64,000 nucleotides of DNA from Halopseudomonas phragmitis (GTDB taxonomy: Bacteria > Pseudomonadota > Gammaproteobacteria > Pseudomonadales > Pseudomonadaceae), in contig NZ_CP020100.1 of the NCBI RefSeq assembly GCF_002056295.1, positions 62,001-126,000 on the forward strand. Reading direction: 5' to 3'. Under the pieces are notes generated by a model, which ran no database searches, was not told the DNA's origin, and saw nothing but the letters and a program-made list of their open reading frames with translations. Position numbers and translations under genes: made by a program. Shown piece by piece: positions 22,801 through 45,258 of the stretch (its first letter is position 1; each line of letters begins with the position of its first letter).

Positions 22801-22975
22801 GGGAAACACTGATTAAATCAGTTTCGGTGTTGGCCCAATTGTCGCTGACCTGTTCTGGACACGCCGTGAACCCATCCCTGGGGGCTTGACGATGCCCATC
22901 CAGGGCATCGACAGTCCAGAACAGGTCAGCGCCAACCGGGCTGCTGGGCTTGCGTGCAATTAATCAATGTTTCCC
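22801..22975. repeat. MITE-like nested palindromic element, copy A
   Basis: A 175-bp element with terminal inverted repeats GGGAAACACTGATTAA and TTAATCAATGTTTCCC (one mismatch), flanked by TA on both sides. Inside is a long stem (CGCTGACCTGTTCTGGAC with its complement) enclosing two small hairpins: CCCATCCCTGGG, and GATGCCC/GGGCATC with loop ATCCA. It fills the gap between the convergent gacS and acpS; its last base is the G of the acpS TAG stop. Related to the copies at 36567, 42092 and 45085. Confidence 0.85.
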
Positions 22976-23355
22976 TAGCCGGCGGACCACAGCGCAAAAG
23001 CCAGCGCCTGCTCGCGCTCATCACTGAGCGACAGCAGCATGCGTCCGCCGCCGCCCTGCTGTAGCCGGGCCAGCGCCGTGCCGCTCAGCACCACCAGAGG
23101 CGCGCCGTTGGCATCACTGTCGATCTGGATATGCTGCCAGGACATGCCCTTGGCCAGCCCGGTTCCCAAGGCCTTGAGGATCGCTTCCTTGGCAGCGAAG
23201 CGCTTGGCCAGAAACCGCAGCGGCTGGTGATGCGTGGCGTAGCGCTGGAACTCGGCAGGGGTCAGAATGCGCCGGGCAAAGCGCTCACCCTGGCGCGCCA
23301 CCACCGCCTCGATCCGCGCCACCAGCACCAGATCAGTGCCAATCCCGATGATCAT
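22975..23355 (-). CDS. acpS: holo-[acyl-carrier-protein] synthase
   Basis: A 126-residue phosphopantetheinyl transferase converting apo-ACP to holo-ACP for fatty acid synthesis. The N-terminal [15 protein letters not shown] binds Mg2+ via Asp, and [15 protein letters not shown] (about residues 52-66) is the family signature. The ATG overlaps the pdxJ stop by 4 bp (ATGA). It is the last gene of the long algU-to-acpS run. Its TAG stop straddles the edge of repeat copy A: T and A from the flanking dinucleotide, G from the element. Length is normal, so the insertion did not truncate it noticeably. Confidence 0.95.
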
Positions 23356-24095
23356 CGGCCAGCCGCAGCACTCAGGATCAGCGCCCGCATTTCCCGTACC
23401 GCCTCAGCCAGACCACTGAACAGCGCCCGGGCAATGATTGCATGCCCGATATTCAGCTCATTGATTCCGGGGATAGCCGCAATCGGCTCGACATTGTGAT
23501 AGTGCAGCCCATGCCCGGCATTGACCACCAGACCCAGCTTGCGGGCATAGATCACCCCTTCACGGATGCGCGCCAGCGCCTCGGCCTGCTCAGCCCCCTG
23601 GGTGTCGGCATAGTGGCCGGTATGCAGCTCGATCACAGGCGCCCCAGCCTGCTTGGCCGCCTCAATCTGGCGTGGATCAGCATCGATGAACAGCGACACT
23701 TCGGCGCCCTGGGCAGCCAGTTGCTCGACCGCTTCCTGCACCCGGGCCTGATTGCCCAGTACATCCAACCCACCCTCGGTGGTCAGTTCTTCGCGCCGCT
23801 CGGGCACCAGACACACGTGTTCAGGAGCAATCTCCCGGGCAAACACCAGCATCTCGTCGGTAACCGCTATTTCCAGATTCATCCTGGTCTGCATTACTTC
23901 CTTGAGCAGACGCACATCGCGCTCCTGAATATGCCGGCGATCCTCGCGCAGGTGCACGGTAATACCATCGGCGCCAGCCTGCTCGGCCTCGATTGCCGCC
24001 TGGACCGGGTCGGGGTAACGGGTACCACGCGCCTGACGCAGAGTGGCGATATGGTCGATGTTCACCCCCAACAGCACACGTTGTGGATCAGTCAC
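23352..24095 (-). CDS. pdxJ: pyridoxine 5'-phosphate synthase PdxJ
   Basis: A 247-residue TIM-barrel enzyme condensing 1-deoxyxylulose 5-phosphate and 3-amino-2-oxopropyl phosphate into pyridoxine 5'-phosphate. Motifs are [21 protein letters not shown] (split across residues 9-29) and [16 protein letters not shown] (about 43-58). The start is a GTG at 24095 with AAGGAG 7 nt upstream, much better than an ATG 19 codons earlier that lies inside recO. It overlaps the recO 3' end by 8 bp and acpS by 4 bp. Confidence 0.95.
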
Positions 24096-24798
24096 GGGAA
24101 GACTCCTTGTTGGAAACGGAAAACAGTTGTCGGCTGAGCAGCGGTCGTTCACCCAGATGAACGCCCAGAGCCTGGCGCATCAAACGCTTGGCGGTGCGCA
24201 GAGTCTCGGCGTCACGCCAGTCATCGGCGGCCATGGCCAGCAGCGCCGCCCCCGGCAGTGCCGATGGCGGGACCGGACCCGAGAGCCGTACCAGGCCTTG
24301 CTCGAACTGCCAGTGATAATAACCCTGCGCGTCAACCCTAGTGCCCTCGGCATCCTCGACAAGACTGAAACCATAGCCCAGAACCGCCAGCAGTTGCCAT
24401 TCGAAACGGCGCAGCAACGGCTCGACCGGCTCGGCCTCGGCCAGCGCCTGCAGGCTGTTCTGATAGGCGGCGAACAACAGAGTCTGGGGATCACCGGGAG
24501 TCAGCAGCCGTACCAGCAACTCGTTCAGGTACAAACCACTGAACAGTGCATCGCCCTGAAGCAGGCGATAATGCCCGGCGATCTCGGCCTGCTGCAGGGT
24601 TTTCAGTTCACCGCGCCCGCCCAGGCCGACCAGTAGCGGCACGAACGGTTGAGCAGCATTGCCCTTGCGCGCACTACGCGCGCCACGCCAGACGACTCGC
24701 TGCACCCCCTGATGCAGGGTCAGCAAATCGACCAACGCACTGCTGTCGCGATAGGGCCTGCTGTGCAGGACATAGGCGGGGGTCAGCATAAGGTGCAT
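24088..24798 (-). CDS. recO: DNA repair protein RecO
   Basis: A 236-residue protein of the RecFOR pathway that loads RecA on SSB-coated gaps. An N-terminal OB fold (about residues 1-80, beginning [21 protein letters not shown]) is followed by a helical domain. The bacterial zinc-finger cysteines are absent, as in E. coli RecO. It is placed between era (11 bp upstream) and pdxJ, the standard proteobacterial order. The exact start is uncertain, since a second ATG lies three codons in. Confidence 0.93.
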
Positions 24799-24809
24799 GG
24801 GGCACCCGA

Positions 24810-25706
24810 TCAGTCGAAGCGGTAACCCAGCGAGTTGAGTGCCCGCTCATCATCAGACCAGCCGCGGCGCACCTTGACCCAGAGATTGAGCATAACCTTG
24901 CTGCCGAACAGCTTTTGCATGTCCAGCCGAGCTTCCTGGCCAATCTTCTTCAGTCGTTCCCCACCATCGCCGATGATGATTTTCTTCTGACCATCGCGCT
25001 CGACCAGAATCAACGCGTGAATATGCAGGATCTTGCCTTCTTGCTTGAACTGTTCGACCTCGACCGTAACCTGGTAGGGCACCTCGGCACCGAGTTGACG
25101 CATGACTTTCTCGCGCACCAGTTCGGCCGCCAGAAAACGCGAACTGCGGTCGGTCAACTGGTCATCAGGGTAGAAGTGTTCACTCTCAGGCAAACGTTCG
25201 GCAATCAGTTGCTCGAGATGCCCGATATTGCGCCCGTGCAGCGCCGATACCGGTACCACCTCTGCCTCGGGCAACTGCTCGGTCAACCACTCCAGATGCG
25301 GCAGCAGCGTATTTTTGTCATCCAGCCGATCAACCTTGTTGACCACTATCAGCACCGGGCAGCGCACCTGTTGAATCCGCTCCAACACCATCTGGTCTTC
25401 ATCGGTCCAGCGCAGCCGATCAACCACGAACAGCACCACATCAACATCACGCAGTGCCTGGCTGGCACTCTTGTTCATGTAGCGATTGAGTGCCTTTTCG
25501 TTTTCCTTGTGCAGACCGGGGGTATCGACATAGATCGCCTGTACCGGGCCTTCGGTCTTGATCCCCAGCAGCGTATGTCGGGTGGTCTGCGGCTTGCGCG
25601 AGGTGATCGCCAGCTTCTGCCCTAGGATGTGATTGAGCAGTGTCGACTTGCCTACATTTGGCCGGCCAACAATGGCCACATAGCCACAACGGTTTGCGTC
25701 AGTCAT
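24810..25706 (-). CDS. era: GTPase Era
   Basis: A 298-residue essential GTPase that binds the 3' end of 16S rRNA during 30S maturation. G1 [12 protein letters not shown] (about residues 14-25), G3 DTPG (about 62), G4 NKVD (about 125) and a C-terminal KH domain (about 205-285, with [22 protein letters not shown] in order) are all present. The start overlaps rnc by 8 bp, linking Era synthesis to RNase III, which cuts the rRNA precursor Era acts on. Confidence 0.97.
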
Positions 25707-26388
25707 CGATTTTCTCCACCCCCAGGGCTAGCAAAGCTTCCTGGGCGGCTTGCTGTTCGGCCAGCCGGCGACTGCTGCCAACCCCGAAAGTACGTTCTGA
25801 TAGCAAGGCAATCTGGCAGTCGACCTTAAAGGTCCGGCAGTGCGCCTCACCGCTACTTTCGATTACCTCGTAACGCGGCAGTTCGCACTGACGCGACTGC
25901 AGGTACTCCTGCAGGCGGGTTTTCGGGTCCTTGTTGTTGTCGATCAGGGTCAGCTCGGCAATGTGTTCCTGCAACCAGTGCAGAATACGCTCGCGCGCGG
26001 TCTCCATCCCGCTATCCAGATAGATGGCTCCGATGATCGCTTCGGTAGCGTCGGCCAGTATCGATTCACGGCGAAAACCACCACTCTTGAGCTCGCCCGA
26101 GCCCAGGCGCAGGTATTCACCCAGCTCGAAGCCCTTGGCCAGCTCAGCCAGGGTCACACCCTTGACCAACCGGGCCCGCAACCTCGACAACTGACCCTCA
26201 CGGGCTTGGGGGAAACGTTGGAACAGCGCCTCGGCGGCGACAAAATTGAGCACCGAGTCACCAAGAAACTCCAGGCGCTCGTTGTTGCGCCCACCGTGAC
26301 TACGGTGGGTCAGGGCCAGAACCAGCAGTTCCTGGTCCTTGAAACTGTACCCTATCTTACGTTCAAGTCGGTCTAGCTTGTTGCTCAC
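25699..26388 (-). CDS. rnc: ribonuclease III
   Basis: A 229-residue double-strand-specific endoribonuclease processing rRNA precursors and some mRNAs. The catalytic signature [19 protein letters not shown] lies at about residues 38-56, a second acidic cluster [15 protein letters not shown] near 115, and a dsRNA-binding domain at about 155-225. It starts with GTG overlapping the stop of the upstream DUF4845 gene by 4 bp (GTGA). In E. coli RNase III autoregulates by cutting its own leader; no such leader hairpin was looked for successfully here. Confidence 0.96.
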
Positions 26389-26762
26389 TTTAAGGGTCTG
26401 ACAATATGGGTTTCATCAAAATGGACCAGCAGGTCCACGGTCTTGAGCAGCGGTGAACGTACCTCGTACTTGATCACGACGGTATAGGCGTCGGTCCCGC
26501 TGGCCGTCACATTGACCGCATCATCCATGCGGATATCGCGAATACTGTTGATCTGCATGCCGCGACTGATGTGGCTATGCATGTCACGCAACGAATTGAT
26601 GCTCAACGAAGGGTCGTCATTCACCGAAGTCACTATCTTGCGCAGGGCGAAATGGTCCATATAGATGGGGATCAGTTTGGCCGCGATTACCAGACCGAAA
26701 ACGATCAGAGCAATGACTGCCAGCCAACCAAAGAATGACATGCCTTTCTGCGAGTGGCGCAT
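26385..26762 (-). CDS. DUF4845 membrane protein
   Basis: A 125-residue protein starting [24 protein letters not shown]: a short basic N-terminus, one membrane helix (about residues 10-32) and a periplasmic or extracytoplasmic domain. The N-terminus resembles a type IV prepilin-like leader, but there is no G/E cleavage context. This small protein is regularly found between lepB and rnc in pseudomonads and relatives; function unknown. The ATG at 26762 is chosen over an upstream ATG (26 codons earlier) that is unlike the family. Confidence 0.85.
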
Positions 26763-26858
26763 GATGACCTCGTTACGTCCGATGTTGATGTTGTTATCAG
26801 CCTGCCATGGCCATGTAAGCCAGGCAGGCATTCCTTGCAAGGCTGACCGGATCGAAGC

Positions 26859-27737
26859 TCAGTTGATCAGGGCAACGCTGGAAAAACTCGGCAGGTTGCG
26901 CAACTTCGGCTCGGGCCAGTGCATCCAGACCGCGAAGGCCTTGCCTACAATATAGTTGTCGGGAACCATACCCCACAACTCTCGAGGCATATCCGAAGCA
27001 CTCCAGTAACGACTGTCGTTGGAATTGTCACGGTTGTCACCCACCATGAAATAATGCCCCTCAGGCACTACCCACTCGCGTGCGGGCGGCGCCTGCGACA
27101 GACGTTTGTGGCGAATCAGGTGAGTTGTCTCGCCCAACTGCTCCTGGAATACATCGGCTTCGGCAATGGCCTGCAACGGATGTCCGGCCGGCACTTCGTC
27201 ATCGGGCTCGACTCGCAGCAACTCGCGACTGACCGGCTCGCCGTTGACGAACAACTGCTTGTCGGCGTAAGCCACGTGATCGCCAGGCAAACCGACCACC
27301 CGCTTGATGTAGTTGACCCTGGGGTCATTCGGGTAGCGGAACACCATGACATCCCCGCGCTGCGGGTCCCCGATCGGAATCACCTTGGTATCGAGTACCG
27401 GCAGGCGAATACCGTAGGAAAATTTGTTTACCAGGATGAAATCACCAACCTCCAGAGTCGGCTTCATCGAACCGGATGGAATCTGGAACGGCTCGACCAG
27501 AAAAGAGCGCAGCACCAATACCACCGCCAGGACCGGAAAGAACGACTTGGAGTACTCGATCAGCAGTGGCTCCTTGCCCAGCCGCTCTATGGTTTGCGGA
27601 TCGGCAACGTCCACTTCTCTCTGATAGCGCTCCTGCGCACGACGCCGGCCGGGAGCCAGCAGGAGCCGGTCCAGCAGTGCCAGCAATCCCGTGCCGGCAA
27701 CCGCAATGACCAGTATCAGCGGAAAATTGAAATGCAT
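26859..27737 (-). CDS. lepB: signal peptidase I
   Basis: A 292-residue inner-membrane serine protease removing signal peptides from exported proteins. TM1 is at about residues 4-22, TM2 at about 60-78. The nucleophile is in PSGSMKPTLEVGDFILVNKF (about residue 92), the general-base lysine in YIKRVVGLPGD (about 148), and box E is GDNRDNSNDSRYW (about 257). It follows lepA by 20 bp in the conserved lepA-lepB order. Confidence 0.96.
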   Translation of the reverse strand: MHFNFPLILVIAVAGTGLLALLDRLLLAPGRRRAQERYQREVDVADPQTIERLGKEPLLIEYSKSFFPVLAVVLVLRSFLVEPFQIPSGSMKPTLEVGDFILVNKFSYGIRLPVLDTKVIPIGDPQRGDVMVFRYPNDPRVNYIKRVVGLPGDHVAYADKQLFVNGEPVSRELLRVEPDDEVPAGHPLQAIAEADVFQEQLGETTHLIRHKRLSQAPPAREWVVPEGHYFMVGDNRDNSNDSRYWSASDMPRELWGMVPDNYIVGKAFAVWMHWPEPKLRNLPSFSSVALIN

Positions 27738-27757
27738 ATCTGTCCCTGGTTATTGAC

Positions 27758-29557
27758 TTAGCTGTCTACTTTCAACACCGCCAGGAACGCGTCCTGGGGA
27801 ATTTCCACGCTACCTACCTGCTTCATACGTTTCTTACCGGCCTTCTGCTTTTCCAGCAGCTTCTTCTTACGGCTGGCGTCACCGCCGTAACACTTGGCCA
27901 GAACGTTCTTGCGCAGTGCCTTGACTGTCGAGCGGGCAACAATCTGCCCACCGATGGCAGCCTGAATGGCGACATCGAACATCTGCCGCGGAATCAGTTC
28001 CTTCATCTTTTCGACCAATTGCCGGCCTTTGTAGGCAGCATTGTCCCGGTGCACGATCAGCGCCAGAGCATCGACCTTTTCACCATTGATCAGTACATCC
28101 AGACGCACCAGTTTGGCAGCCTGGAAGCGCTCGAAGCTGTAATCGAGCGATGCATAGCCACGGCTGACCGACTTCAACCGATCGAAGAAGTCCAGCACCA
28201 CCTCGTTCATCGGCAGGTCATAGGTGACCTGCACCTGAGTGCCGAGGAACACCATGTCATGCTGCACGCCACGCTTCTCGATACACAAGGTAATCACGCT
28301 GCCCAGGTGATCCTGTGGCACCAGAATATTGGCTCGCACGATCGGCTCACGCATTTCCTCGATCATCGACGGATCAGGCAGATGCGACGGGTTGTCGACG
28401 TAGATCACCTCACCGCCTTTCTTCACCACCTCGAAGACTACGGTTGGCGCCGTGGTGATCAGATCCAGGTCGTACTCGCGCTCCAGACGCTCCTGAATGA
28501 TCTCCATGTGCAGCATGCCAAGGAAACCGATACGGAAACCAAAGCCCAGCGCATCGGAGCTTTCCGGCTCGAACTGCAGCGCCGCATCGTTCAGGGTCAG
28601 CTTCTGCAGTGCTTCGCGGAAATCCTCGAAGTCATCCGAACTGACCGGGAACAGACCAGCATAGACCTGCGGCTTGACCCGCTGAAAACCTGGCAGCGGA
28701 TCGACGTCCGGGGTATTCGACAGAGTCAGGGTGTCGCCCACCGGAGCGCCGTGAATATCCTTGATACCGGCGATGATGAAACCCACCTCGCCAGCCTTGA
28801 GATCAGCGGTTTCAGTATGTTTGGGGTTGAATACACCAACGCTGTCGACCTGATGCACCTTGCCGGTCGATTTGACCAGAACCTTGTCGCCCTTCTTGAT
28901 CCGGCCATGCTTAACCCGTACCAGCGACACGACCCCGAGGTAGTTGTCGAACCAGGAATCAATGATCAGTGCCTGCAGTGGCGCCTCAATCTCACCTTCC
29001 GGGCTGGGAATAGCCTGAATCAGGCGCTCCAGCACATCCTCGACGCCCAGACCGCTCTTGGCCGAACAGGCCACGGCGTCGGTTGCATCGATTCCGATCA
29101 CGCTTTCGATTTCCGCCTTGACCCGCTCCGGCTCAGCCTGGGGCAGGTCGATCTTGTTCAGAACCGGCATCACCTCGAGTCCCTGCTCGATGGCGGTGTA
29201 GCAGTTGGCGACCGACTGCGCCTCCACACCCTGGGCGGCATCCACCACCAGCAGAGCGCCTTCACAGGCCGCCAGCGAGCGGCTGACTTCGTAGTGGAAG
29301 TCAACGTGGCCGGGGGTGTCAATGAAGTTGAGTTGGTAGGTCTTGCCGTCACGCGCGGTGTAATACAGGGTCACGCTGTGAGCCTTGATGGTAATCCCGC
29401 GCTCACGTTCAAGATCCATGGAGTCGAGCACCTGCTCGGCCATTTCCCGCTCGGTCAGGCCACCACAGATCTGGATGAAACGGTCAGCCAGGGTCGATTT
29501 GCCGTGGTCGATGTGGGCAATGATCGAAAAGTTACGAATAAGACTCAGGTCACTCAC
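27758..29557 (-). CDS. lepA: elongation factor 4 (LepA)
   Basis: A 599-residue ribosome-associated translational GTPase. G1 [13 protein letters not shown] (about residue 12), G3 DTPGHVDF (about 78) and G4 NKIDLP (about 131) are visible, and the unique C-terminal domain ends in a basic region [21 protein letters not shown] place the start at the GTG at 29557 ([12 protein letters not shown]), matching the usual family N-terminus; an ATG four codons upstream and another further up are possible. It lies 169 bp after mucD. Confidence 0.95.
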
Positions 29558-29726
29558 GGCGCGGTTCATCCAGACTAGATTGCCAGGCATGGCAGTGGGC
29601 GGGGCAGGCTCCCCAAAACAGCCCGCGAGTGTACCTGATTACGCCGTAAGGCGCTATCGCAAGCCCGACCACGGAGCCATATCCGGCGACGGATACAGCA
29701 CCACTGGTCGGCTTGTGGATGACGGC

Positions 29727-31160
29727 CTATTCGGCCAATCTGAAGGTAATGTAACTGGCCCGTCCTTGACGGATTACCCGCATGGAAATCGAGCGATTAT
29801 TCGGCAGCTCCTTGGCCGTCTGCTCAAAGGCGCTCACCGAATCGATCACCTTGTTGTCAAGATTGGTAATGATATCGCCAGGACGCAGCCCAACCATGGC
29901 GCCCGGGCCTGGCCGCACTTCACGCACCGCCACGCCAGCACGCACATCCAGGCTCTGCTTTTGCTCATCACTCAACTCGACCACGGTCACGCCCAGACGG
30001 TTGTCGGCTGCAGCCGGAGCGCCGGGAGCCGGCCCACCCGAGGCGGCAATGCTATCATCGTCCGGCAACGCGCCAACGGTCAGCTTGATGGTCCGGCGCT
30101 TCTTGTCACGCATCACCACCACATTGGCCTCGGTACCCGGCCGGACCCGGCCCACCGCATGCGGCAGATCGGAGGACATGACGATATCCTGGCCGTTGAA
30201 CTGCAGGATCACATCACCAGCCTGCAAACCGCCCCGATCAGCCGGGCCATCGGGCTGGGTCTGGGCAATCAGTGCTCCAGCCGGACGCGGCAGACCAAAG
30301 GACTCGGCCAGATCCTTATTGACCTCCTGAATCACTACTCCCAACCAGCCGCGCTGAACGCTGCCGTCACGCTTGAGCTGCTCGACCACATCCATGGCGA
30401 CATCCATCGGAATCGCAAAGGATAGCCCCATGAAACCACCGGAACGGGTGAAAATCTGCGAATTGATGCCGATCACCTCGCCATCGAGATTGAACAGTGG
30501 GCCACCCGAGTTACCCGGATTGATCGCCACATCGGTCTGAATGAAAGGCACATAGCTTTCGTTCGGCAGACTGCGGCCCTTGGCACTGACGATACCGGCG
30601 GTCACCGAATAGTCGAAGCCGAACGGCGAACCGATTGCCAATACCCACTCACCAGCTTTCAGATCTGCCGACTTGCCGATCTTGACCACTGGCAAGTCGC
30701 CGCCGGCATCGATTTTCAACAGCGCCAGATCAGAGCGCGGATCAGCCCCGACCAGTTCGGCCTGCAGCTCACGACGATCAGACAAGCGCACGAAGATCTC
30801 GTCGGCGTCGGCGATCACATGATTATTGGTGAGGACATAACCGTCCCGAGAGATGATGAAGCCTGAACCCAGCGACTGCGGCTGGCGCTGTCGGGGTGCC
30901 TGCTGAGGTGTCTGCGGGAAACCCCGCTCGAAAAACTCGCGAAACAGTGGGGGCAGGCCTTCCAGGTCAGGCATACCGGGCACCATGCGCGAAGCCCGGT
31001 CAGGAATATTCTGACGCGTACTGATATTGACCACCGCTGGCGCGGCATCTTCAACCAGCTCAGTAAAATCCGGCAGGCCTCGGGCAGCCATGGCAGCAGA
31101 CTGCCAACCCAGCACCAATATCCCAAAGGCAACCACTACCCAGCGTTGCACAGACAGCAT
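29727..31160 (-). CDS. mucD: periplasmic serine protease MucD (DegP/HtrA family)
   Basis: A 477-residue HtrA-type protease/chaperone that removes misfolded envelope proteins and, in P. aeruginosa, dampens AlgU activity. A signal peptide (about 1-25, ending SAAMAARG) is followed by the protease domain with His in LTNNHVIADADE, Asp in SDLALLKI and Ser in NPGNSGGPLFNLDGEVIG, then two PDZ domains (about 275-365 and 385-475). It follows mucC by 44 bp. A Ser/Ala/Gly/Pro-rich linker separates the PDZ domains. Confidence 0.95.
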   Translation of the reverse strand: MLSVQRWVVVAFGILVLGWQSAAMAARGLPDFTELVEDAAPAVVNISTRQNIPDRASRMVPGMPDLEGLPPLFREFFERGFPQTPQQAPRQRQPQSLGSGFIISRDGYVLTNNHVIADADEIFVRLSDRRELQAELVGADPRSDLALLKIDAGGDLPVVKIGKSADLKAGEWVLAIGSPFGFDYSVTAGIVSAKGRSLPNESYVPFIQTDVAINPGNSGGPLFNLDGEVIGINSQIFTRSGGFMGLSFAIPMDVAMDVVEQLKRDGSVQRGWLGVVIQEVNKDLAESFGLPRPAGALIAQTQPDGPADRGGLQAGDVILQFNGQDIVMSSDLPHAVGRVRPGTEANVVVMRDKKRRTIKLTVGALPDDDSIAASGGPAPGAPAAADNRLGVTVVELSDEQKQSLDVRAGVAVREVRPGPGAMVGLRPGDIITNLDNKVIDSVSAFEQTAKELPNNRSISMRVIRQGRASYITFRLAE

Positions 31161-31204
31161 AGACCCTCATCTCCTTTGTTCATCAAGGTTCATCAAGCCT
31201 TGTT

Positions 31205-33242: not shown

Positions 33243-33302
33243 TGCTGTACCTCTGCTATAGGCCCCGAAGGGCTCGCTGCATGATGCCATTCAATCCACT
33301 GC

Positions 33303-33878: not shown

Positions 33879-33922
33879 GCTGACGCCCCATGGCTGTCAG
33901 TCGTTCGACCCGCCTTGATGTG

Positions 33923-33998: not shown

Positions 33999-34188
33999 CA
34001 TACGGCCATCATGCCGCTGCCTGCATAATAGCAAGCCCGGCGCGGCAGCAGAAACAACGATGCGCCCACACATGCATCCAGACGGTATTGCAGCCCGCAC
34101 GCCTTCTATATACTACTGAGTCGGCCTACACCAAACCGCCCATGGCAGCCGGTCTCCAGCCACGATTTCAACGGACGCACCTCAATCT

Positions 34189-36223: not shown

Positions 36224-36461
36224 GGTCCAGAATAATCCTCACGATGCGCTTGAGCTCCGGATCTTCCGGTTCGCCACGTTGCATGAACCAGCCGAACATG
36301 TCCTGATCCTCGCACTCAAGCAATTTGTGGTAGCGTGCCTTGTCCGCCTCATCCAGCCCCGGGTAGGCCTCCTGCAGAAAGGGAACCAGCAGCACATCCA
36401 GCTCCAGCATGCCGCGCCGGCTGTGCCAGTACAAACGTTTCATTTCTATATCGGCCGACAT
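36207..36461 (-). CDS. sdhE: FAD assembly factor SdhE
   Basis: An 84-residue cytosolic helical protein that promotes covalent attachment of FAD to succinate dehydrogenase SdhA (and fumarate reductase). The signature [14 protein letters not shown] is at about residues 13-26. Of several in-frame starts, the ATG at 36461 is chosen because GGAG lies exactly 6 nt before it. It pairs with ygfX as in E. coli. Its promoter region is next to repeat copy B. Confidence 0.93.
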
Positions 36462-36566
36462 CAACATCTCCACACCGGGTTGAAAGCTATGCATTAAACA
36501 TCATTATAACCTCAACACCGGAACTGGGCCGCACTGACAAGCCACCAACCCTGCCTTATGATGTTA

Positions 36567-36741
36567 GGGAAACACTGATTAAATCAGTTTTGGAGCTGGC
36601 CCAATTGGCGCTGACCTGTTCTGGACACGCTGTAAATACATCCCTGTACGCTCTTAGATGCCATCCCTGGCATCTAACGGTCCAGAACAGGTCAGCGCCA
36701 ACCGGGCTACTGAGCTTACGTGCAATTAATCAGTGTTTCCT
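36567..36741. repeat. MITE-like nested palindromic element, copy B
   Basis: 175 bp, termini GGGAAACACTGATTAA and TTAATCAGTGTTTCCT, flanked by TA (36565-36566 and 36742-36743). The inner stem GCGCTGACCTGTTCTGGAC pairs with its complement and encloses hairpins TACATCCCTGTA and AGATGCCATCCCTGGCATCT. It lies between the divergent sdhE and ygfZ start regions, so it may affect expression of either. Confidence 0.87.
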
Positions 36742-36759
36742 TAGGACCAACCACAAGCA

Positions 36760-37788
36760 ATGACTGACATGACCGCCATTATTGAGCCCCTGCACTCCCG
36801 CTTCGCCACCTGCGAACCCGATCATGAGCCCGCCACGGCTCTGACCCTGCTCAGTCACGAGGCCATCCTGGCGATCTCCGGCCCCGATGCCGAGCGCTTC
36901 CTGCAGGGTCAGATCACCTGCGACATCAGTCGCCTGCCAGTTCCCGGCAGTACGCCGGGCGCGCGCTGCAACCCCAAAGGGCGGATGCAGTCGAGCTTTC
37001 GGCTGCTGCGCAGTGAACCCGAGCATTACCTCTTGGCGCTGGAACAGTCACTGCTAACACCACAACTGGCCGACCTGAACAAATACGCCGTCTTTTTCCG
37101 CAAGGCCCGCCTGGAAGACGCCAGCCAGCACTGGTGCCGACTCGGACTCTGGGGTGAACAGGCCGGCCGGGCTCTGGAGCAGGCAGGACTGGCCGTACCC
37201 GAGACCACTGACATCCCGAGCCAAACCGCCCAAGGACTGGTAATTCGCCTCAGTGACGGCGCCTACGAGCTATGGCTACCGGCCGACAAGGCCCCAGCCG
37301 TACTTGAGCAGTTGTGCCAACAGGCCACTGCCGCTCACCTCAACCAATGGCTGCTGCGCCAGATCCGTGCCGGGATCGGCCAGGTCATGGGGCCAACCCA
37401 GGAGAGCTTCATTCCGCAGATGCTGAACCTGCAACTACAGGGCGGCGTCAGCTTCAGAAAAGGCTGTTACACCGGCCAGGAAATCGTCGCCCGCATGCAG
37501 TATCTGGGCAAACTCAAACGCCGGATGTTTCGCCTGCTACTGGCCGGAACCGCGATACCACCGCCAGGTACACTGATCGTCGAGCGCGACAGCGGCAAGC
37601 CGATCGGTGAACTGGTTATCGCCGCACGTACCACCCAGCGAGTGGAAATGCTGGCCGTGCTGCAAAAGGATGCGGCACAATATGCCACTTTGAGTCTGGC
37701 CGATGCCGACGGGCCGCTGCTGACCCTGGCCGACCTGCCCTACGACCATGAACTGGCAGCCACCGAAACCGACAACGCCTCCGAATAA
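36760..37788 (+). CDS. ygfZ: folate-binding protein YgfZ
   Basis: A 342-residue aminomethyltransferase-like (GcvT-fold) protein that uses tetrahydrofolate to support assembly or repair of Fe-S clusters, including in MiaB. The family signature KGCYTGQEIVARMQYLG is at about residues 229-245, with the conserved Cys. FLQGQITCDIS (about 47) is also typical. The start is uncertain: a second ATG lies three codons in. The ATG is 18 bp beyond repeat copy B. Confidence 0.93.
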   Translation: MTDMTAIIEPLHSRFATCEPDHEPATALTLLSHEAILAISGPDAERFLQGQITCDISRLPVPGSTPGARCNPKGRMQSSFRLLRSEPEHYLLALEQSLLTPQLADLNKYAVFFRKARLEDASQHWCRLGLWGEQAGRALEQAGLAVPETTDIPSQTAQGLVIRLSDGAYELWLPADKAPAVLEQLCQQATAAHLNQWLLRQIRAGIGQVMGPTQESFIPQMLNLQLQGGVSFRKGCYTGQEIVARMQYLGKLKRRMFRLLLAGTAIPPPGTLIVERDSGKPIGELVIAARTTQRVEMLAVLQKDAAQYATLSLADADGPLLTLADLPYDHELAATETDNASE

Positions 37789-37798
37789 GGGAAACTGC

Positions 37799-38626
37799 AT
37801 GACCGATCTGGCCCAACGCGTTCAAGACGAACTGATCGACGCCATCAACAAGGACCAGTTGACGCTTCCCACTTTGCCGGAAATCGCCCTGCGAGTTCGC
37901 GAAGCCGCCGAAGACCCGAATGTCAGCATCCCCTTTCTGGTCAAGGAAATCAGCAACGACGCTGCACTCAGTGCGCGCCTGATCAAGGTAGTCAACAGCC
38001 CGCTACTGCGCAGTCGGAGCGAAATTACCGACCTGTCGATGGCCGTCAACCGCCTAGGCATCACCTATACAGCCAACCTGGCCACCGGCCTGGCCATGCA
38101 GCAGATGTTCCAGGCCACCTCGGACGTGATCGACCGCAAAATGCGTGAAGTCTGGGCACGCAGCACCGAAGTCGCCGGCATCAGCCACGTGCTGTGCCGC
38201 CACTACACCCGGCTCAAGCCCGACCAGGCGACCTTGGCCGGCCTGGTCCACCAGATCGGTGTTTTGCCGGTCCTCAGTTATGCCGAGGAAAACAGCCAAC
38301 TGCTGCGCGATTCGATCAGCCTGAATCTGGTCATTGAACGCATCCATCCGGTCCTGGGTGACAAGATTCTCGAGGCCTGGGACTTCCCCGCACCGCTATT
38401 GAAGGTACCCAGCCAGCACCTGGACTTCACCCGCAACTCGGCCACAGCCGACTATGCAGATATCGTCCAGGTCGCCATGCTCCATGGACTGGCCGGCAGC
38501 GAACATCCATTCGCCCAGATGAACTGGAATCAGATTCCCTCCTTCGCCAAGCTGGGTATCAACCCGCTCGGCGAGGAAGAAGACCTGTCAGCAGAGATGG
38601 AAGCAGCTACGCACCTGCTCGGCTGA
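37799..38626 (+). CDS. HDOD domain protein
   Basis: A 275-residue cytoplasmic protein made almost entirely of one HDOD domain (about residues 20-215), with TLPTLPEIALRVREAAEDPNVS at its start (in two parts) and SARLIKVVNSPLLRS. HDOD domains are HD-like but lack the metal-binding catalytic residues; they act in signalling, often with c-di-GMP or chemotaxis proteins. It starts 10 bp after ygfZ stops with a GGGAAACTGC leader, so both are probably co-transcribed. Partner unknown. Confidence 0.88.
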   Translation: MTDLAQRVQDELIDAINKDQLTLPTLPEIALRVREAAEDPNVSIPFLVKEISNDAALSARLIKVVNSPLLRSRSEITDLSMAVNRLGITYTANLATGLAMQQMFQATSDVIDRKMREVWARSTEVAGISHVLCRHYTRLKPDQATLAGLVHQIGVLPVLSYAEENSQLLRDSISLNLVIERIHPVLGDKILEAWDFPAPLLKVPSQHLDFTRNSATADYADIVQVAMLHGLAGSEHPFAQMNWNQIPSFAKLGINPLGEEEDLSAEMEAATHLLG

Positions 38627-38637
38627 ACGACCCTTAC

Positions 38638-38678
38638 CCATTGCGAGGACTGCTGCGTCGCCACGCTCCTCGCAATGG
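38638..38678. terminator. palindromic hairpin between convergent genes
   Basis: A perfect 12-bp stem CCATTGCGAGGA / TCCTCGCAATGG with a 17-nt GC-rich loop sits between the stops of the HDOD gene (plus) and the enoyl-CoA hydratase gene (minus). TTTT follows 4 nt later on the plus strand only. The CATTGCGAGGA arm resembles dispersed palindromic repeats known in several proteobacteria; one copy was seen here. It could act as a bidirectional terminator. Confidence 0.55.
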
Positions 38679-38696
38679 CCGATTTTCAGCCTGCAG

Positions 38697-39512
38697 TTAG
38701 CGGTTACGCCATTGCGGCGGCCGCTTCTCCAGAAACGCATTGACACCCTCAAGGGTGTCCTGCAGCTCGAACAGATCAACAAAGCGCTCGCGCTCGTCGG
38801 CCAGCAGGCTGTTCAACGGCTGACTTCGGGCACCCTGGATCAATTGCTTGCAGGCCTTGACCGCACGCGGCGACTGACGCCCAACCTGAGCGGCCAGATG
38901 TAGCGCCGCCGGCACGGCCTGCCCTTCCTCGACCACCTCCTCGACCAGACCAATGCGCTCGGCCTTGACCCCATCGATCCGCTCACCACACAGAATCATC
39001 CGCTTGGCCCAGCCCTCGCCCACCAGCCAGGCCAGTGCCTGGGTCCCACCGGCACACGGCAGCAGCCCGACACTGGCCTCCGGCAAAGCCAGTTGCACCT
39101 GACGCTCGGCAATACGGATATCGCAGGCCAGAGCGCACTCCAACCCACCACCCATGGCATAGCCATTGATCGCGGCAATCGACACTCCAGAAAAGTCCCG
39201 TAGCGCCTCAAAGGCCAGGCCAAACCAGCGTGCCATTTGCCGGGCCTGAGCCCGATCACCCTCAGCAAACAGCTTCAGGTCGGCACCGGCCGAGAAAAAC
39301 CGTTCGCCACGTCCCGTGATCACCAAAGCATAGATCTCCGGATCGCTGTCCAGATGCTTCACCAGTTCATACAGGCCGTGCAGGGTATCTTCATCCCAGG
39401 TATTGGCCGGCGGGTTGTCGATGGTCACCAGCGCGGTATGGCCCACCTTCTGGACCACCAGCATCTTGGTCTTGGGTACCAGCGCGGTATAGGGTTGCAG
39501 AGCATGTTCCAT
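38697..39512 (-). CDS. enoyl-CoA hydratase/isomerase family protein
   Basis: A 271-residue crotonase-fold enzyme. NPPANTWDEDTL (about residue 34), the oxyanion-hole region GYAMGGGLECALACD (about 118-132) and PEASVGLLPCAGGTQ (about 143-157) carry the two acidic residues expected of a hydratase. The ATG at 39512 has GGAG 7 nt upstream and replaces an earlier in-frame start. It is separated from ung by 72 bp. Its position near ung recalls P. aeruginosa PA0745 (DspI, needed for the dispersion signal cis-2-decenoic acid), but orthology is only suggested. Confidence 0.88.
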   Translation of the reverse strand: MEHALQPYTALVPKTKMLVVQKVGHTALVTIDNPPANTWDEDTLHGLYELVKHLDSDPEIYALVITGRGERFFSAGADLKLFAEGDRAQARQMARWFGLAFEALRDFSGVSIAAINGYAMGGGLECALACDIRIAERQVQLALPEASVGLLPCAGGTQALAWLVGEGWAKRMILCGERIDGVKAERIGLVEEVVEEGQAVPAALHLAAQVGRQSPRAVKACKQLIQGARSQPLNSLLADERERFVDLFELQDTLEGVNAFLEKRPPQWRNR

Positions 39513-39584
39513 GGTGGTTCTCCAGGCAGGTTCAAACTGCCTCAAGGATAAGCCATAACCCACCGGGCCACACAACCTTCGGGA

Positions 39585-40268
39585 TCAGGGCAGACGCCAA
39601 TCGATCGGCGTCAGGCCATGCTCTTGCAGATAACGGTTGGCGGCCGAGAAATGTCCGTTACCGAGAAAACCGCGATGGGCCGACAGCGGCGAAGGGTGTG
39701 GCGAGGCCAGCACGCAATGGCGGTCAGAGTCGATATGCGCACCTTTTTTCTGTGCGTAGCTGCCCCAGAGCATGAACACCAGATGCTCACGTTGCTCGTT
39801 CAGCACTTCAATGATCCGCGAGGTAAAACGCTCCCAGCCCCGATTGGCATGCGACCCGGCATTGGCCTGCTGCACGCTCAACACCGCATTGAGCAATAGC
39901 ACGCCCTGATCAGCCCAGCTTTGCAGGCAACCATGGTCAGGAATGGGGTAGCCAAGGTCACGCTGGATTTCCTTGAAGATATTCTGCAGCGACGGCGGTG
40001 CCGGCACACCCGGCGGCACCGAAAAGCTCAAACCGTGTGCCTGCCCCGGACCGTGATAGGGGTCCTGACCGATGATCACCACTTTGACCTGCTCCAGCGG
40101 CGTGCTGTTAAGGGCATTGAACATCAGCGGCCCAGGCGGAAAGATCACCTTGCCAGCACTTTTCTCGGCCTGCAGGAAACTACGCAACTGCTGCATGTAA
40201 GGCTGTTCGAACTGGTCTGCCAGAACCTGCTTCCAGCCCTCGTCCAGTTGCACAGTACGCTCAGTCAT
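39585..40268 (-). CDS. ung: uracil-DNA glycosylase
   Basis: A 227-residue family 1 enzyme that excises uracil from DNA in base-excision repair. The water-activating motif [18 protein letters not shown] (about residues 65-82) and the leucine-loop motif [14 protein letters not shown] (about 190-203) are intact. The ATG at 40268 ([12 protein letters not shown]) overlaps the upstream small membrane gene by 8 bp; the long upstream in-frame extension runs antisense-like through that gene and is not real. Confidence 0.97.
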
Positions 40269-40599
40269 CCGCGCCTCCCAGCACTGGCACCGACTGCGCT
40301 TCACAGCGCACCACCCGCTGACGACCATCGACCAGCACCCCGGACAGAGCATTGTGCCGCCGCGAATGCAGCACCAGCACTCCATCCACACACTCGGCCA
40401 AGTAATCGGCCGGGGTGCCACGCAACTGCCCCTGGGCATCGGCTACGGTAACCAGATCGAAACTGGCCAGCTCACGCCCCTGATCATCCTGAGTCAGGTT
40501 CAGATAGCCATACAGGTGCAACACCGTCACAGTGGCGATGACCGTGGCAAACGCGGTCAAAATCATGGGTATCTTGTTGGCTTCCTGAATCCAGGCCAT
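40261..40599 (-). CDS. small single-pass membrane protein, function unknown
   Basis: A 112-residue protein beginning [14 protein letters not shown], with one membrane helix (about residues 10-30) and a soluble domain of about 80 residues containing [22 protein letters not shown]. It overlaps the start of ung by 8 bp and begins 12 bp after the QEGLA-family gene stops, so the three are probably one transcript. Homologues seem restricted to pseudomonads from memory; no domain name is known to me. Confidence 0.7.
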
Positions 40600-40610
40600 G
40601 CGAAACTCCG

Positions 40611-41894
40611 TTACAGAATATTGGCGTAATCGGCCTCGATCCGCTCGAGGCTGAGGTTGGTAAGAAATCCGGAAAAGCACATCCAGGCGCTCAGCGCATT
40701 GAGATCGGCAAACGGCTCGGGCAAGTAGCGCGGCGGCACCACCAGACCTTCGTCCACCAGTTGCCCCAGGGTGCGCATATCCTCCAGCGTGGTCTTGCCA
40801 CAGAACAGCAACGGAATCTGCTGCAGTTTGCCTTTGCGCACCGCCAACTGGATGTAGTTATAGGTCAGGATAAAACCCTTGAGGTAGGCCAGATCCTTGG
40901 TGAATGGCAAACCAGCGCTGCTGGAGCCACGGAACACACGGCTGGCGTTGGCATAACTGTCCTCGCGGCTGTAACCCTCGCCACGATAGAACTCGAACAC
41001 TTCAAGGAAATTGGCCCCGGACTCGGCCAATTGGATTGCCCGGGTACGGTTGGTCAGCTTGCGCAGCCGGGCTGGATAGGAGGCAAAGGTAATCACCTCC
41101 ATCAAAATCGCCAGGCCTTCCTGGGTCACGGTCGAGGACGGCGGCCCCTTGGCCAGAAAGGTACAGATCGGCTGGTGCTGACCATTCAGACTGGTCGCCA
41201 CATGCACCATGCCTTCATGCACTGCCAGAATTTTCAGGTCGCGCTGATTGAACATGGCATCGCTGCGAATCTTGATGTAATCGGCGCCAGCGGCCGCATC
41301 GGCAACGATGCCGTCGGACTCGAAGACCCGCACCGCCTGATCATCGGGAAACGCCTGATTCATCCTGTCCTGCAGAATCGCCACCGCTTCTGGCGCTGCA
41401 ATGGTCTTGGGCTCTCGGCCCAGGTCGTTACCGATATTGCTCAAGGACTCACTAAGCATGATGCCCAGGTCGGTAATGGTCGGGTCGCCAGCGTGGAACG
41501 CGTCCGAAGCCGAGCCATAGAGCTCTTGGGAGATTCGCCCGAACTCCGGCGTACCGCGCCCTTCCAGCATGCGGATGACCATGCGATATTCGCGGCACAT
41601 GCGGCGCATGATCTGGCCGACCGGGCTGAAGGTGCCTAGCTGGCGGGTAATGTCGCGCTCAATATCCTGGAACAGTTGCAGACGCTCGGCCGGATCGAAG
41701 CTCAGCGGGCGCTGGGCATAGTAATCGGCATCCACTGGCGGCAGGCTCTTGCAGCGTTTGCGAAAAAACTCCTCGCGCACACTATCATCCCACTTGATCG
41801 CATCCAGCACCCGAATCGGCGCCTGCGCCTCCACCAGCCGATCGGACAGGCTGCGGATCACCAGTTGGTATTGCTCGCTCTGTTTGACTGCCAT
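40611..41894 (-). CDS. QEGLA-family protein with HExxxH motif (MATCAP/DUF1704)
   Basis: A 427-residue protein of the family formerly DUF1704, annotated as flavohemoglobin expression-modulating QEGLA-motif protein. HEGMVH (HExxxH) is at about residue 228 and TQEGLAILMEV at about 262, giving the His-Glu-His plus distal Glu set of a zinc metallopeptidase; related eukaryotic proteins are tubulin tyrosine carboxypeptidases. The bacterial substrate is unknown. The ATG at 41894 (MAVKQSEQYQL) is chosen over one 25 codons upstream. It heads a likely operon with the small membrane gene and ung. Confidence 0.87.
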   Translation of the reverse strand: MAVKQSEQYQLVIRSLSDRLVEAQAPIRVLDAIKWDDSVREEFFRKRCKSLPPVDADYYAQRPLSFDPAERLQLFQDIERDITRQLGTFSPVGQIMRRMCREYRMVIRMLEGRGTPEFGRISQELYGSASDAFHAGDPTITDLGIMLSESLSNIGNDLGREPKTIAAPEAVAILQDRMNQAFPDDQAVRVFESDGIVADAAAGADYIKIRSDAMFNQRDLKILAVHEGMVHVATSLNGQHQPICTFLAKGPPSSTVTQEGLAILMEVITFASYPARLRKLTNRTRAIQLAESGANFLEVFEFYRGEGYSREDSYANASRVFRGSSSAGLPFTKDLAYLKGFILTYNYIQLAVRKGKLQQIPLLFCGKTTLEDMRTLGQLVDEGLVVPPRYLPEPFADLNALSAWMCFSGFLTNLSLERIEADYANIL

Positions 41895-41953
41895 GACCGA
41901 AATCTCTGAATGACGAGCGTTGACATTACGGGGCTTGTTTGTTGGGTGCAATG

Positions 41954-42061
41954 CCCTGCCGAAGGCCACTCATTGTGGACACGCCACAAGTACATCCCTG
42001 TAGGCTCGGCGATAGCCATCCCTGGCTATCGACGGTCCACAATGAGTGACCTTCGACAGCG
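41954..42061 (+). repeat. nested palindromic element, copy D (inner module only)
   Basis: Arms of about 27 bp (CGAAGGCCACTCATTGTGGAC on the left against its near-complement, 2 mismatches) enclose hairpins TACATCCCTGTA and CGATAGCCA/TGGCTATCG with loop TCCC. The core ACACGC...CATCCCTG...GCTC...GGTCC matches copies A-C, but the arms are different sequences. The GGGAAAC-type outer termini of the other copies were not found here. Confidence 0.8.
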
Positions 42062-42091
42062 CAAGGAGCGTTGGCTCCGTCTGGCCGTCTG

Positions 42092-42264
42092 GGGAAACCC
42101 TGAGCCCCATCAATGTATCCAAGCGCGCCTGGGGACGGCCTATGGCGGACCGTCGATGGCCAGGGATGGCCATCGTCGAGCCCCAGGGATGGCTTGTAGC
42201 GTGTCCGCCATAGGCCGTCCCCAGGCGCGCCAGCAGCACATCACTCCAGGGCTCAAGGTTTCCC
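42092..42264 (-). repeat. MITE-like nested palindromic element, copy E
   Basis: 173 bp with termini GGGAAACCCTGAGCCC and GGGCTCAAGGTTTCCC and TG on both flanks (42090-42091, 42265-42266). The inner stem is a perfect 28-bp inverted repeat (42123-42150 with 42203-42230, arm including GGGGACGGCCTATGGCGGAC). The core lies in reverse orientation to copies A-D and carries CCATCCCTGG and CGATGGCCA/TGGCCATCG hairpins. It sits 23 bp beyond the lysS stop and may also act as a transcription barrier. Confidence 0.85.
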
Positions 42265-42287
42265 TGCACTGACCAACGGAAAAACGA

Positions 42288-43793
42288 TCAGTGATGCTCC
42301 GGACGCATATGCGGGAACAGGATCACGTCGCGGATCGATGGCGAGTCGGTCAGCAGCATCACCAGGCGGTCGATACCGATGCCCTCGCCGGCGGTCGGCG
42401 GCATGCCGTATTCCAGCGCACGCACGAAGTCGGCATCAAAATGCATGGCCTCATCGTCACCGGCGTCCTTGTCGGCCACCTGGGCATGGAAACGCTCGGC
42501 CTGATCCTCGGCGTCGTTCAGCTCGGAATAGGCATTGGCGATTTCACGGCCACCGATGAACAGCTCGAAGCGATCGGTCACGCTCGGATCGTCATCGCTG
42601 CGGCGCGCCAGCGGCGAGACCTCGAACGGATAGCGGGTAATAAAGGTCGGCTGCTCCAGCTTGTGCTCGACCAGTTCCTCGAACACCATGGTCTGCAACT
42701 TGCCCAGTCCTTCAAAGCCCTTGACGTCGGCACCGGCCTTTTTCGCTATCGCCCGGCACTGCCCCAGGTCACGCAGGTCCTCGGCGCTGATCTCGGGATT
42801 GAAGTGCAGAATCGAGTCGAACACCGACATCCGCGCGAACGGCTTGCCGAAATCGAACACCTTGCCCTGGTAGGGCACCTCGGTAGTACCCAGCACCGCC
42901 ATGGCCAGCTCGCGGAACAGTTCCTCGGTCAGGTCCATGTTGTCCTCATAGTCGGCGTAGGCCTGGTAGAACTCGAGCATGGTGAACTCGGGGTTGTGCC
43001 GGGTCGATACGCCTTCGTTACGGAAATTGCGGTTGATCTCGAACACCCGCTCGAAGCCACCTACCACCAGCCGCTTCAGATACAGCTCCGGGGCGATGCG
43101 CAGGAACATCGGCAGATCCAGCGCATTGTGATGGGTTTCGAACGGTTTGGCTGCGGCACCGCCGGGGATGGTCTGCAGCATGGGCGTTTCGACTTCGAGG
43201 AAGTTGCGCTCGGCGAGGAACTTGCGGATGTGGCCGATCACCTGCGAACGTACCTGGAAGGTGTGGCGGGTGTCCTCGTTGACGATCAGGTCAACATAAC
43301 GCTGCCGGTAGCGCTGCTCGGTGTCGGTCAGACCGTGGAACTTGTCCGGTAGTGGCCGCAGCGACTTGGTCAGCAGTTGTACGGCGGTCATATGCACATA
43401 CAGGTCGCCCTTGCCGGAACGCGCCAGGGTGCCTTCGGCAGCGATGATATCGCCCATGTCCCAGGTCTTGATCGCTTCCAGGGTTTCGGCCGGCAGGCCC
43501 TTGCGGTCAACATACACCTGAATCCGCCCACTCATGTCCTGAATGACCATGAAAGCGCCACGGTTGAGCATGATGCGCCCAGCCACCTTGACCGGAATCG
43601 CCGCGCCTTCCAATTGCTCCTTGCTGTGCTCGGCATAGGCCTTCTGCAGATCACCGGCGTAGCTGTCACGGCGGAAGCGGTTGGGGAAAGCGTTGCCCTT
43701 GGCCCGTTCGGCGGCAAGCTTTTCCTTGCGCAGGGCAATCAGGCGGTTTTCTTCCTCGTGATGGGCTTGCTGGTCATGCTGCTGATCGGTCAT
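42288..43793 (-). CDS. lysS: lysyl-tRNA synthetase, class II
   Basis: A 501-residue enzyme charging tRNA-Lys. An N-terminal OB anticodon-binding domain (about residues 60-165) is followed by the class II core with motif 1 near 200, motif 2 [20 protein letters not shown] (about 258-277, with the ATP-binding Arg) and motif 3 [13 protein letters not shown] (about 475). The ATG at 43793 ([18 protein letters not shown]) is used. It follows prfB by 49 bp, the same prfB-lysS order as in E. coli. Confidence 0.97.
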
Positions 43794-43842
43794 GTCGGGT
43801 CTTCCTGGGTAAAACACGTAATAGAGTTGGCCTGGCGGGAGC

Positions 43843-44938
43843 TTAGAGCCCCTGCTTCAGGCTGGCCTCGATATATTCATCGAGATCGCCATCGAGCACC
43901 TTGTCGCAGTCGCTGCGCTCGATACCAGTGCGCAGATCCTTGATCCGCGACTGGTCCAGCACGTAGGAGCGGATCTGATGGCCCCAGCCGATATCCGACT
44001 TGCTGTCTTCCAGCGCCTGGGCGGCGGCGTTGCGTTTCTGCATTTCAAGCTCATAGAGCTTGGCACGCAGCATCTTCATTGCAGTATCACGGTTGGCGTG
44101 CTGCGAACGCTGGTTCTGGCAACTGACCACGGTATTGGTCGGCACGTGGGTGATCCGGATTGCCGAGTCGGTAGTGTTAACATGCTGACCACCGGCACCG
44201 GAGGAGCGGTAGGTGTCTACCCGCAGATCGGCCGGGTTGATGTCGATTTCGATGTTGTCATCGATTTCCGGCGAGGCGAATACCGCGCAGAACGAAGTAT
44301 GCCGACGGTTGCCGGAGTCAAACGGGCTCTTGCGCACCAGCCGGTGCACACCAATCTCGGTACGCAGCCAGCCAAAGGCATATTCACCACGCACATGCAC
44401 GGTGGCACTCTTGATCCCGGCGACTTCACCTTCGGACAATTCGACAATTTCCGCCTCGAAGCCGTGCTTGTCGGCCCAGCGCAGATACATGCGCAGCAGC
44501 ATGTTGGCCCAGTCCTGGGCCTCGGTACCGCCAGAGCCGGCCTGGATATCCAGGTAGCAGTTGTTGGCGTCCATCTCGCCGCTGAACATGCGCCGGAATT
44601 CGAGTTTTTCCAGACTGTCCTGCAAGCGCTGCAGCTCGCTGACGATGTCGGCCACGGCGGCCTCGTCGTTTTCTTCAGCGGCCATTTCCAGCAGTTCGGA
44701 GGCATCCGTCAGGCCAGCGTGCATATCGTCCAGCGTTTCGACGATCTGCGCCAGTTGAGCCCGTTCACGGCCCAGGTTCTGAGCCCGCTCCGGATCATTC
44801 CAGACGTTTGGATCTTCGAGCTCACGCTCGACTTCGGTCAGACGATCACGTTTGTGATCGTAGTCAAAGATACCCCCTGATGGTCTCGGAACGACCACGC
44901 AGATCTTTGATGTTGTTCAGAATCGGATTGATTTCCAT
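43843..44938 (-). CDS. prfB: peptide chain release factor 2 (programmed frameshift)
   Basis: RF2 recognises UGA and UAA. The protein is made from two frames: codons 1-24 start at the ATG at 44938 ([16 protein letters not shown]) and end at CTT; an in-frame TGA follows, and a +1 shift continues at 44865 for 340 more codons, about 364 residues in total. The codon-recognition SPF is in RKSPFDSG and the catalytic GGQ in [14 protein letters not shown]. The long downstream frame alone, which opens at 44898, misses the true N-terminus. lysS follows 49 bp downstream. Confidence 0.97.
44863..44878 (-). promoter_or_regulatory. prfB: prfB +1 programmed frameshift site
   Basis: Read on the minus strand: AGGGGG TAT CTT TGA C. 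The Shine-Dalgarno-like AGGGGG three nucleotides before the slippery CTT, and the poorly recognised TGA-C context, are the classical autoregulatory element: low RF2 favours shifting and thus more RF2. Confidence 0.95.
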
Positions 44939-45084
44939 AGGTCAGGCAGCCCGCTTGGGAAAAAGCCGGCATTGTAGCGGAAATCGGCCGCCCCGTGCAG
45001 TTTCTCCACGACCGAAGGCGGTTGACCGCAGCGCCACCAGCCTTGACCCAGATCAGAGAAGTTCCAGCCAGAGCGCCTACACTA

Positions 45085-45258
45085 AGGAAACACTGATTAA
45101 ATCATTTCGGTACTGGCCCAATTGTCGCTGACCTGTTCTGGACACGCTGTAAATACATCCCTGTACGCTCTTAGATGCCATCCCTGGCATCTAACGGTCC
45201 AGAACAGGTCAGCGACAACCGGGCTACTGAGCTTGTGTGGAACTAATCAGTGTTTCCC
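45085..45258. repeat. MITE-like nested palindromic element, copy C
   Basis: 174 bp, termini AGGAAACACTGATTAA and CTAATCAGTGTTTCCC, flanked by TA (45083-45084, 45259-45260). The inner stem and core are nearly identical to copy B, including TACATCCCTGTA and AGATGCCATCCCTGGCATCT. It lies between divergent prfB and the phosphoketolase-like gene, its right end 38 bp before that gene's start codon, so it probably carries or displaces the promoter. Confidence 0.87.

Follow-up and report, generated by a model that had tools for sequence, protein, structure and literature searches.

A dispersed, strand-specific structured repeat of Gammaproteobacteria, possibly a CsrA/RsmA-type RNA element

In published work, the CsrA motif is (A/U)CANGGANG(U/A) (PMC6692469, PMC6849547), systematic evolution of ligands by exponential enrichment yields the consensus RUACARGGAUGU, and the protein bridges sites 10-63 nt apart, best when they are >18 nt apart (PMC7652899). 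Published work also describes TwoAYGGAY, with two hairpins bearing AYGGAY loops, as a proposed CsrA binder (PMC4333381), Alteromonas Aln1a-c as small RNAs (sRNAs) of CsrA type that contain A(N)GGA motifs (PMC5864184), Coxiella QMITE1/2 as sRNAs derived from miniature inverted-repeat transposable elements (MITEs; PMC5896051), and repetitive extragenic palindromes (REPs) as 20-40 bp single hairpins with tags (PMC3733652). Here we analysed a palindromic repeat element in a 64,000-nt stretch of Halopseudomonas phragmitis (contig NZ_CP020100.1, positions 62,001-126,000; hereafter, the window), where an original prediction had described five copies. That this element is real, widespread, structured and strand-specific we hold with high confidence; as to its identity, we tentatively favour, at slightly under an even chance, a dispersed CsrA/RsmA-type RNA element of Gammaproteobacteria.

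The five window copies have in common one ~89-nt three-way junction. We term the strand on which they were first described the described strand, and its reverse complement the active strand, on which a long variable stem closes the junction and two hairpins carry CANGGANG loops. Direct inspection and two covariance models applied to the window (R1, built from 13 own-genome copies, and a second model, R2) recovered all five modules where the prediction had placed them, at the following coordinates (module strand refers to the active strand; TIR, terminal inverted repeat).

22798..22978, no strand assigned: copy A, MITE, flanked by CTAG (22798-22801 and 22975-22978), its TIR letters lying at 22802-22816 / 22960-22974; the barA/gacS-like gene on one side ends at 22795, and acpS on the other ends at 22975
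22843..22931, minus strand: copy A module, with one loop CAGGGATG and the other CCTGGAT
36564..36744, no strand assigned: copy B, MITE, with TTAG target duplication at 36564-36567 and 36741-36744; directly upstream of ygfZ (36760)
36609..36697, minus strand: copy B module, CAGGGATG in both loops
41954..42264, no strand assigned: copies D and E, an inverted module pair, the commonest multi-copy arrangement of the family
41963..42052, minus strand: copy D module, lacking recognisable MITE ends, CAGGGATG in both loops
42133..42220, plus strand: copy E module, inverted relative to D, with 26 Watson-Crick stem pairs and CAGGGATG in both loops
45082..45261, no strand assigned: copy C, MITE, with flanks CTAA / CTAG; prfB lies on one side and a divergent phosphoketolase-like gene on the other
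45126..45214, minus strand: copy C module, CAGGGATG in both loops

The 173-175-bp repeat unit of the prediction corresponds to the MITE, the conserved unit being the inner ~89-nt module, and the copy at 42133-42220 is inverted with respect to the other four. The stem of copy D has 27 pairs, 24 of them Watson-Crick, with two of the three exceptions being U.G on the active strand, and copy E sits within 42092-42264, whose ends are diverged and TIR-like. At window 20006-22978, copy A directly follows the barA/gacS-like sensor kinase gene, which may be coincidence; homologues of barA/gacS elsewhere control Csr/Rsm RNAs.

Folded as single-stranded DNA (ssDNA), the window stretches (n = 5) reached z-scores of -8.6 to -11.0 against dinucleotide shuffles, with 0/200 shuffles as good for each. 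Among 13 distinct copies from the own genome, pairing was seen in 95.1% of pair cells (80.7% when shuffled) and two-sided changes occurred in 51 cells, compared with 13.0 in shuffles. Alignment A5 comprises 51 distinct modules, 41 of which come from loci of a class-wide pattern scan. Two-sided changes were present at 18/18 of its arm pairs, 89.2% of cells were paired (62.0% in shuffles) and the covariation score was 0.698, whereas shuffles scored 0.202 (standard deviation 0.010) and sliding the partner gave no more than 0.187; hairpin 2 was paired in 72.8%, owing to its variable length and to alignment slip there. These results support the predicted three-stem structure under selection, in RNA or ssDNA. 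The predicted stem covariation was confirmed for copies D and E and for the wider set, but copies A, B and C arose recently from one MITE, which is why their arms agree, and thus do not count as independent evidence. In orthologous copies at hemE/gltD from four genus members (L374, L375, L378, L379) the flanks were kept and arm letters had changed in pairs, one copy having two G.U for G-C across three members; at trpA/aroE, a close species pair had identical 22-bp flanks and quite different yet complementary arms. Template switching can also perfect DNA palindromes, so covariation alone is no proof of selection: the repeats might be functionless DNA palindromes, spread by the MITE and perfected by template-switch correction, as quasi-palindrome correction is generally known to yield paired changes as well and the deletion derivatives described below show the hairpin to be unstable in DNA.

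Since a G.U pair on one strand is an A.C mismatch on the other, the G.U/A.C ratio shows which strand is under selection (modules with <13 of 18 arm positions paired were omitted: 22/216 in the first set and 17 in the held-out set). On the active strand, the arms of the first set contained 157 G.U and 35 A.C (73 loci vs 13), splitting into 70:14 for the genus and order and 87:21 for other genera, and the held-out set gave 72 G.U and 14 A.C (37 vs 4 by locus). The bias pointed the same way in each of the four gene settings (25:7, 9:4, 5:2, 4:2), these contexts deriving from a greedy open-reading-frame heuristic rather than annotation, in loci selected as element-bearing. Inverted pairs, whose members lie on opposite strands of one locus, showed the bias on each member's own strand (56:6 and 47:4), so that a local strand-biased mutation process is no explanation. 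Moreover, P3 pairs 49-68 and 51-66 are G-C/G.U, a combination that makes sense on the active strand alone; a check in the opposite direction, the R1 loop-closing pair of hairpins 1 and 2, gives G.U on the described strand, but this is the variable last loop letter and no stem pair. The structured strand is thus the reverse complement of the one originally described, with arm mismatches that are mostly G.U there and rarely A.C, and the simplest reading is selection on single-stranded nucleic acid of the active strand. Wobble bias alone does not tell RNA and ssDNA apart; we favour RNA with moderate confidence. It does argue against template switching as the whole explanation: functionless palindromes predict no constant strand bias of mismatches, yet both opposite-strand members of the pairs show one, and apex letters are kept across many genera, so this alternative is already disfavoured and, in our judgement, very improbable. 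The wobble-strand test offers a general way to find the selected strand of palindromic repeats.

The active-strand consensus reads (arm)-GACCGU-(hairpin 2, CANGGAUG)-CGAGCC-(hairpin 1, CANGGAUG)-UUYACGGCGUGUC-(arm). The original prediction had placed selection on the fold rather than on the sequence; the strong sequence conservation of loops and linkers indicates selection for sequence as well as fold. Two CANGGANG motifs were found on the active strand in 154/216 modules and one in 62/216, and 206/216 modules had none on the described strand. RNA folds gave two hairpin loops in 201/216 modules, with GGA in both loops in 170/201; the element therefore shares with Csr/Rsm-type RNAs the trait of multiple hairpins whose loops contain (A)NGGA. 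Hairpin 2, which lay outside the search pattern, retained C A N G G A N G (C in 50, A in 45, G in 51, G in 48, A in 49 and G in 50 of 51), and in L102 its stem is wholly different with the loop still AGGGAC between G and C. The GGA-GGA distance was 19-21 nt in 239/282 modules. Loop motif and spacing match the published CsrA/RsmA rules. We propose that the active strand could be transcribed from neighbouring genes, where we place transcription because no promoter of its own was seen, and could then bind CsrA/RsmA, which we regard as about an even call; with CANGGANG loops ~20 nt apart, one dimer could grip both. Binding would titrate the protein or mark the transcript end that carries the element. 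In the own genome, a MITE with IS5-like ends has spread the module, and the frequent inverted pairs would present one active copy whichever direction the locus is read.

Extending the family by covariance model through the genome and its relatives, a step suggested in the prediction, yielded 37 copies in the 4.04-Mb own genome (R1, E < 1e-12), besides one weak site and reverse-strand matches that merely echo these palindromes, and placed the element in 28/37 genus genomes (own included) and in 5/21 from the rest of the order. In the Gammaproteobacteria sample it was present in 64/369 genomes (57/272 genera), and in the phylum sample in 29/398, all within Gammaproteobacteria, the number of non-class genomes among the 398 not being stated; 11 candidates were scored per genome in both surveys, so that copy numbers are floors. 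The matches listed from a pattern scan of named genomes (at least 120 stretches) include Rheinheimera, Xanthomonas, Stenotrophomonas, Marinobacter, Microbulbifer, Arenimonas, Alteromonas, Oceanisphaera, Methylomicrobium, Sodalis, Yersinia similis and, within Halopseudomonas, H. bauzanensis and H. yangmingensis, and R1 gave 117 matches within 80 pattern-scan loci. Nine of the 37 genus genomes were element-free (G002, G006, G010, G013, G017, G022, G032, G033, G034); several of them have a differently matching Y1_Tnp gene and perhaps form one clade. No copies were found in plasmid and phage collections by blastn with one 89-nt composite query, which divergent copies could escape.

Copies A, B and C are MITEs of ~174 bp with ends GGAAACACTGATTAA and YTAR-type target duplications, and identical 4-bp YTAR flanks were present in 7/20 MITE copies examined (3 of the 7 non-palindromic). 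YTAR is the IS5 target rule, and the outer unit of A, B and C has the TIRs and YTAR target duplication of an IS5-type MITE. The search for a parent transposase found no TIR pair 1-2 kb apart among 78 TIR-like own-genome sites. The module also occurs without MITE ends (copy D) or within diverged ends (copy E). Short MITE relatives of 71-79 bp (L136, L146, L148, L152, L153) have lost the central hairpin at varying end points, the pattern that palindrome deletion should leave, and are deletion derivatives. In the own genome, hairpin 1 of at least seven MITE copies (L017/L027, L020, L021, L022, L023/L026, L025/L029, L030) is interrupted by a ~80-bp insert that contains inverted repeats of its own and abolishes one GGA loop, and the copy at L398 1184-1320 has a ~48-nt insert at the hairpin 2 loop. 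The 37 own-genome copies showed no replication-strand bias (19 vs 18 by hand count, coordinate 1 being the assumed origin).

Among 223 copy groups, 165 were single and 58 multi-copy; of the latter, 44 were inverted pairs with active strands pointing outward and 4 were of the other type (p = 1.5e-9). Arrays also occur, with four same-strand copies at a ~180-bp period in a Saccharophagus metagenome-assembled genome (L170 3116-3741) and alternating copies in Xanthomonas (six in L261 2495-3350, four in L186 822-1518). The dominance of inverted pairs favours the main rival explanation, a REP/REPIN-like mobile DNA whose active strand is recognised as ssDNA by some nuclease or transposase: the hairpin would tolerate G.T, the GGA loops would be recognition letters and the inverted pairs the mobile unit, like REP dimers. 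REP families mostly occur as dimers, the spacer measuring 20-100 bp (PMC3733652). Consistently with mobility, presence within the genus is patchy, the trpA/aroE pair is found in close species and the gap there measures 14-148 bp in most others, and Y1_Tnp occurred in 53/64 genomes with the element and 188/305 without (p = 0.0013; genome-level associations were tallied by eye from listings and are uncorrected for phylogeny). However, 11/64 element genomes, nine of them near-complete, had no Y1_Tnp match. RAYT genes, encoding REP-associated tyrosine transposases, are flanked by REPs, but the element lay in only 1/30 stretches around Y1_Tnp genes, and such linkage was rejected. No transposase-like gene recurred beside copies (80 loci, many genera), compensatory change continues in resident orthologous copies, the GTAG tag is absent from A5 and CGTC ahead of hairpin 2 is not constant. 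On balance we consider a REP/REPIN-like mobile DNA element unlikely, though it is the main rival. A gene shared beside copies of unrelated genera was also sought; the 80 loci gave only generic clusters, the largest being ABC-transporter-like as judged by eye.

Several observations weigh against the CsrA/RsmA reading. Copy A of the window has only one CANGGANG, the hairpin 1 letters in at least 120 pattern-scan loci are circular, being fixed by the search pattern, and the conserved linkers CGAGCC and UUYACGGCGU would not be needed by CsrA. CsrA was present in 53/54 near-complete genomes with the element and 227/260 without (p = 0.015), but including incomplete genomes weakened the association (59/64 vs 254/305, p = 0.084), which did not exceed the one seen for Y1 transposases; G253 is near-complete and carries six elements but gave no CsrA match, and may serve as a test case or reflect a gap in its assembly. 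By crude consensus scores, 122 single-copy loci showed no excess of an own promoter or T-run on the active side, so the own promoter and terminator typical of Csr/Rsm RNAs were not seen and an sRNA with its own promoter was rejected. Single copies are located near gene 3' ends, and in co-directional singles the active strand was antisense in 45 and sense in 18 (p = 0.0009); the gene facing the active-strand 3' end was antisense in 78/110 singles. We read this placement as avoidance of active-strand copies within messenger RNAs (mRNAs), although a function of the described strand at mRNA 3' ends would explain it equally well; the wobble result contradicts that alternative. As a terminator or a barrier to decay, in the manner of REPs that follow genes, the described strand would account for those 78/110 singles, in which the upstream gene is sense with it at a median of 52 bp past the stop, and for the annotation of the Yersinia sRNA Ysr224 on that strand. 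Yet wobble pairs are depleted there, T-runs are not enriched after it (21 vs 22 of 122) and copies B and C in the window are situated upstream of genes, which makes a 3'-end structure improbable.

A broader form of the CsrA/RsmA reading, which we put forward as a speculative and rather unlikely extension, is that the repeats are a Gammaproteobacteria-wide family of preformed CsrA/RsmA dimer sites, spread by a transposon and acting as a distributed sponge and as cis-handles on transcripts, with a copy number that helps to set Csr/Rsm activity and is exchanged by horizontal transfer. Should CsrA/RsmA bind the active strand, a global regulator would have, besides a few dedicated sponge RNAs, tens of mobile sites whose number differs by species, and transposition would be a route to rewiring post-transcriptional control.

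Even without CsrA binding, this is a widespread structured repeat family, represented in Rfam only by the Yersinia sRNA Ysr224. The prediction knew of no named family with this layout, which stands for the window, where an Rfam scan found no family at gathering score and Ysr224 (RF02770) reached 14.8 bits, below threshold, in a match that is probably real. It does not stand for relatives, since a described sRNA family covers part of the repeat family: RF02770 scored 126.5 and 82.9 bits (gathering 70) on the Yersinia similis and Sodalis copies, where its matches cover modules of this element, and one member has thus already been recorded as a transcript. A match to a described family, which the prediction named as grounds for refutation, therefore applies in part. 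Among 18 loci, all element-bearing, only L207 and L203 exceeded the gathering score, the other 16 having no match. Ysr224, the source of which is reportedly a 2011 Yersinia sRNA survey, differs in being a single sRNA and in an Rfam structure line that leaves the long arms mostly unpaired with each other; its annotation on the described strand adds to the points against our preferred reading.

A literature search found no paper describing this repeat family, subscription papers being mostly outside its coverage. TwoAYGGAY (RF01731) resembles the element in its two GGA-loop hairpins and differs in its loops, which are AKGGAU in the element; it gave no match even at permissive E-values in two stretches. 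Aln1a-c differ, by description rather than by sequence, in occupying one locus with own promoters, and the text on Coxiella QMITE1/2 mentions no CsrA-type structure, the terms CsrA and GGA being absent from it (PMC5864184 and PMC5896051, respectively). The REP/REPIN families (GTAG, CGTC) are likewise dispersed, intergenic and frequently arranged as inverted dimers, but consist of single short hairpins, whereas the element is an 89-nt branched structure, and no GTAG/CGTC tag beside one short hairpin was seen in A5. With the Csr/Rsm RNAs (CsrB/C, RsmX/Y/Z/W), of which the RsmW model scored 17.5 of the 52 bits needed in the window, the element shares paired hairpins with ANGGA loops; unlike them, it occurs in tens of dispersed copies with no promoter signal, and its two hairpins belong to a fixed three-way junction whose linkers are conserved.

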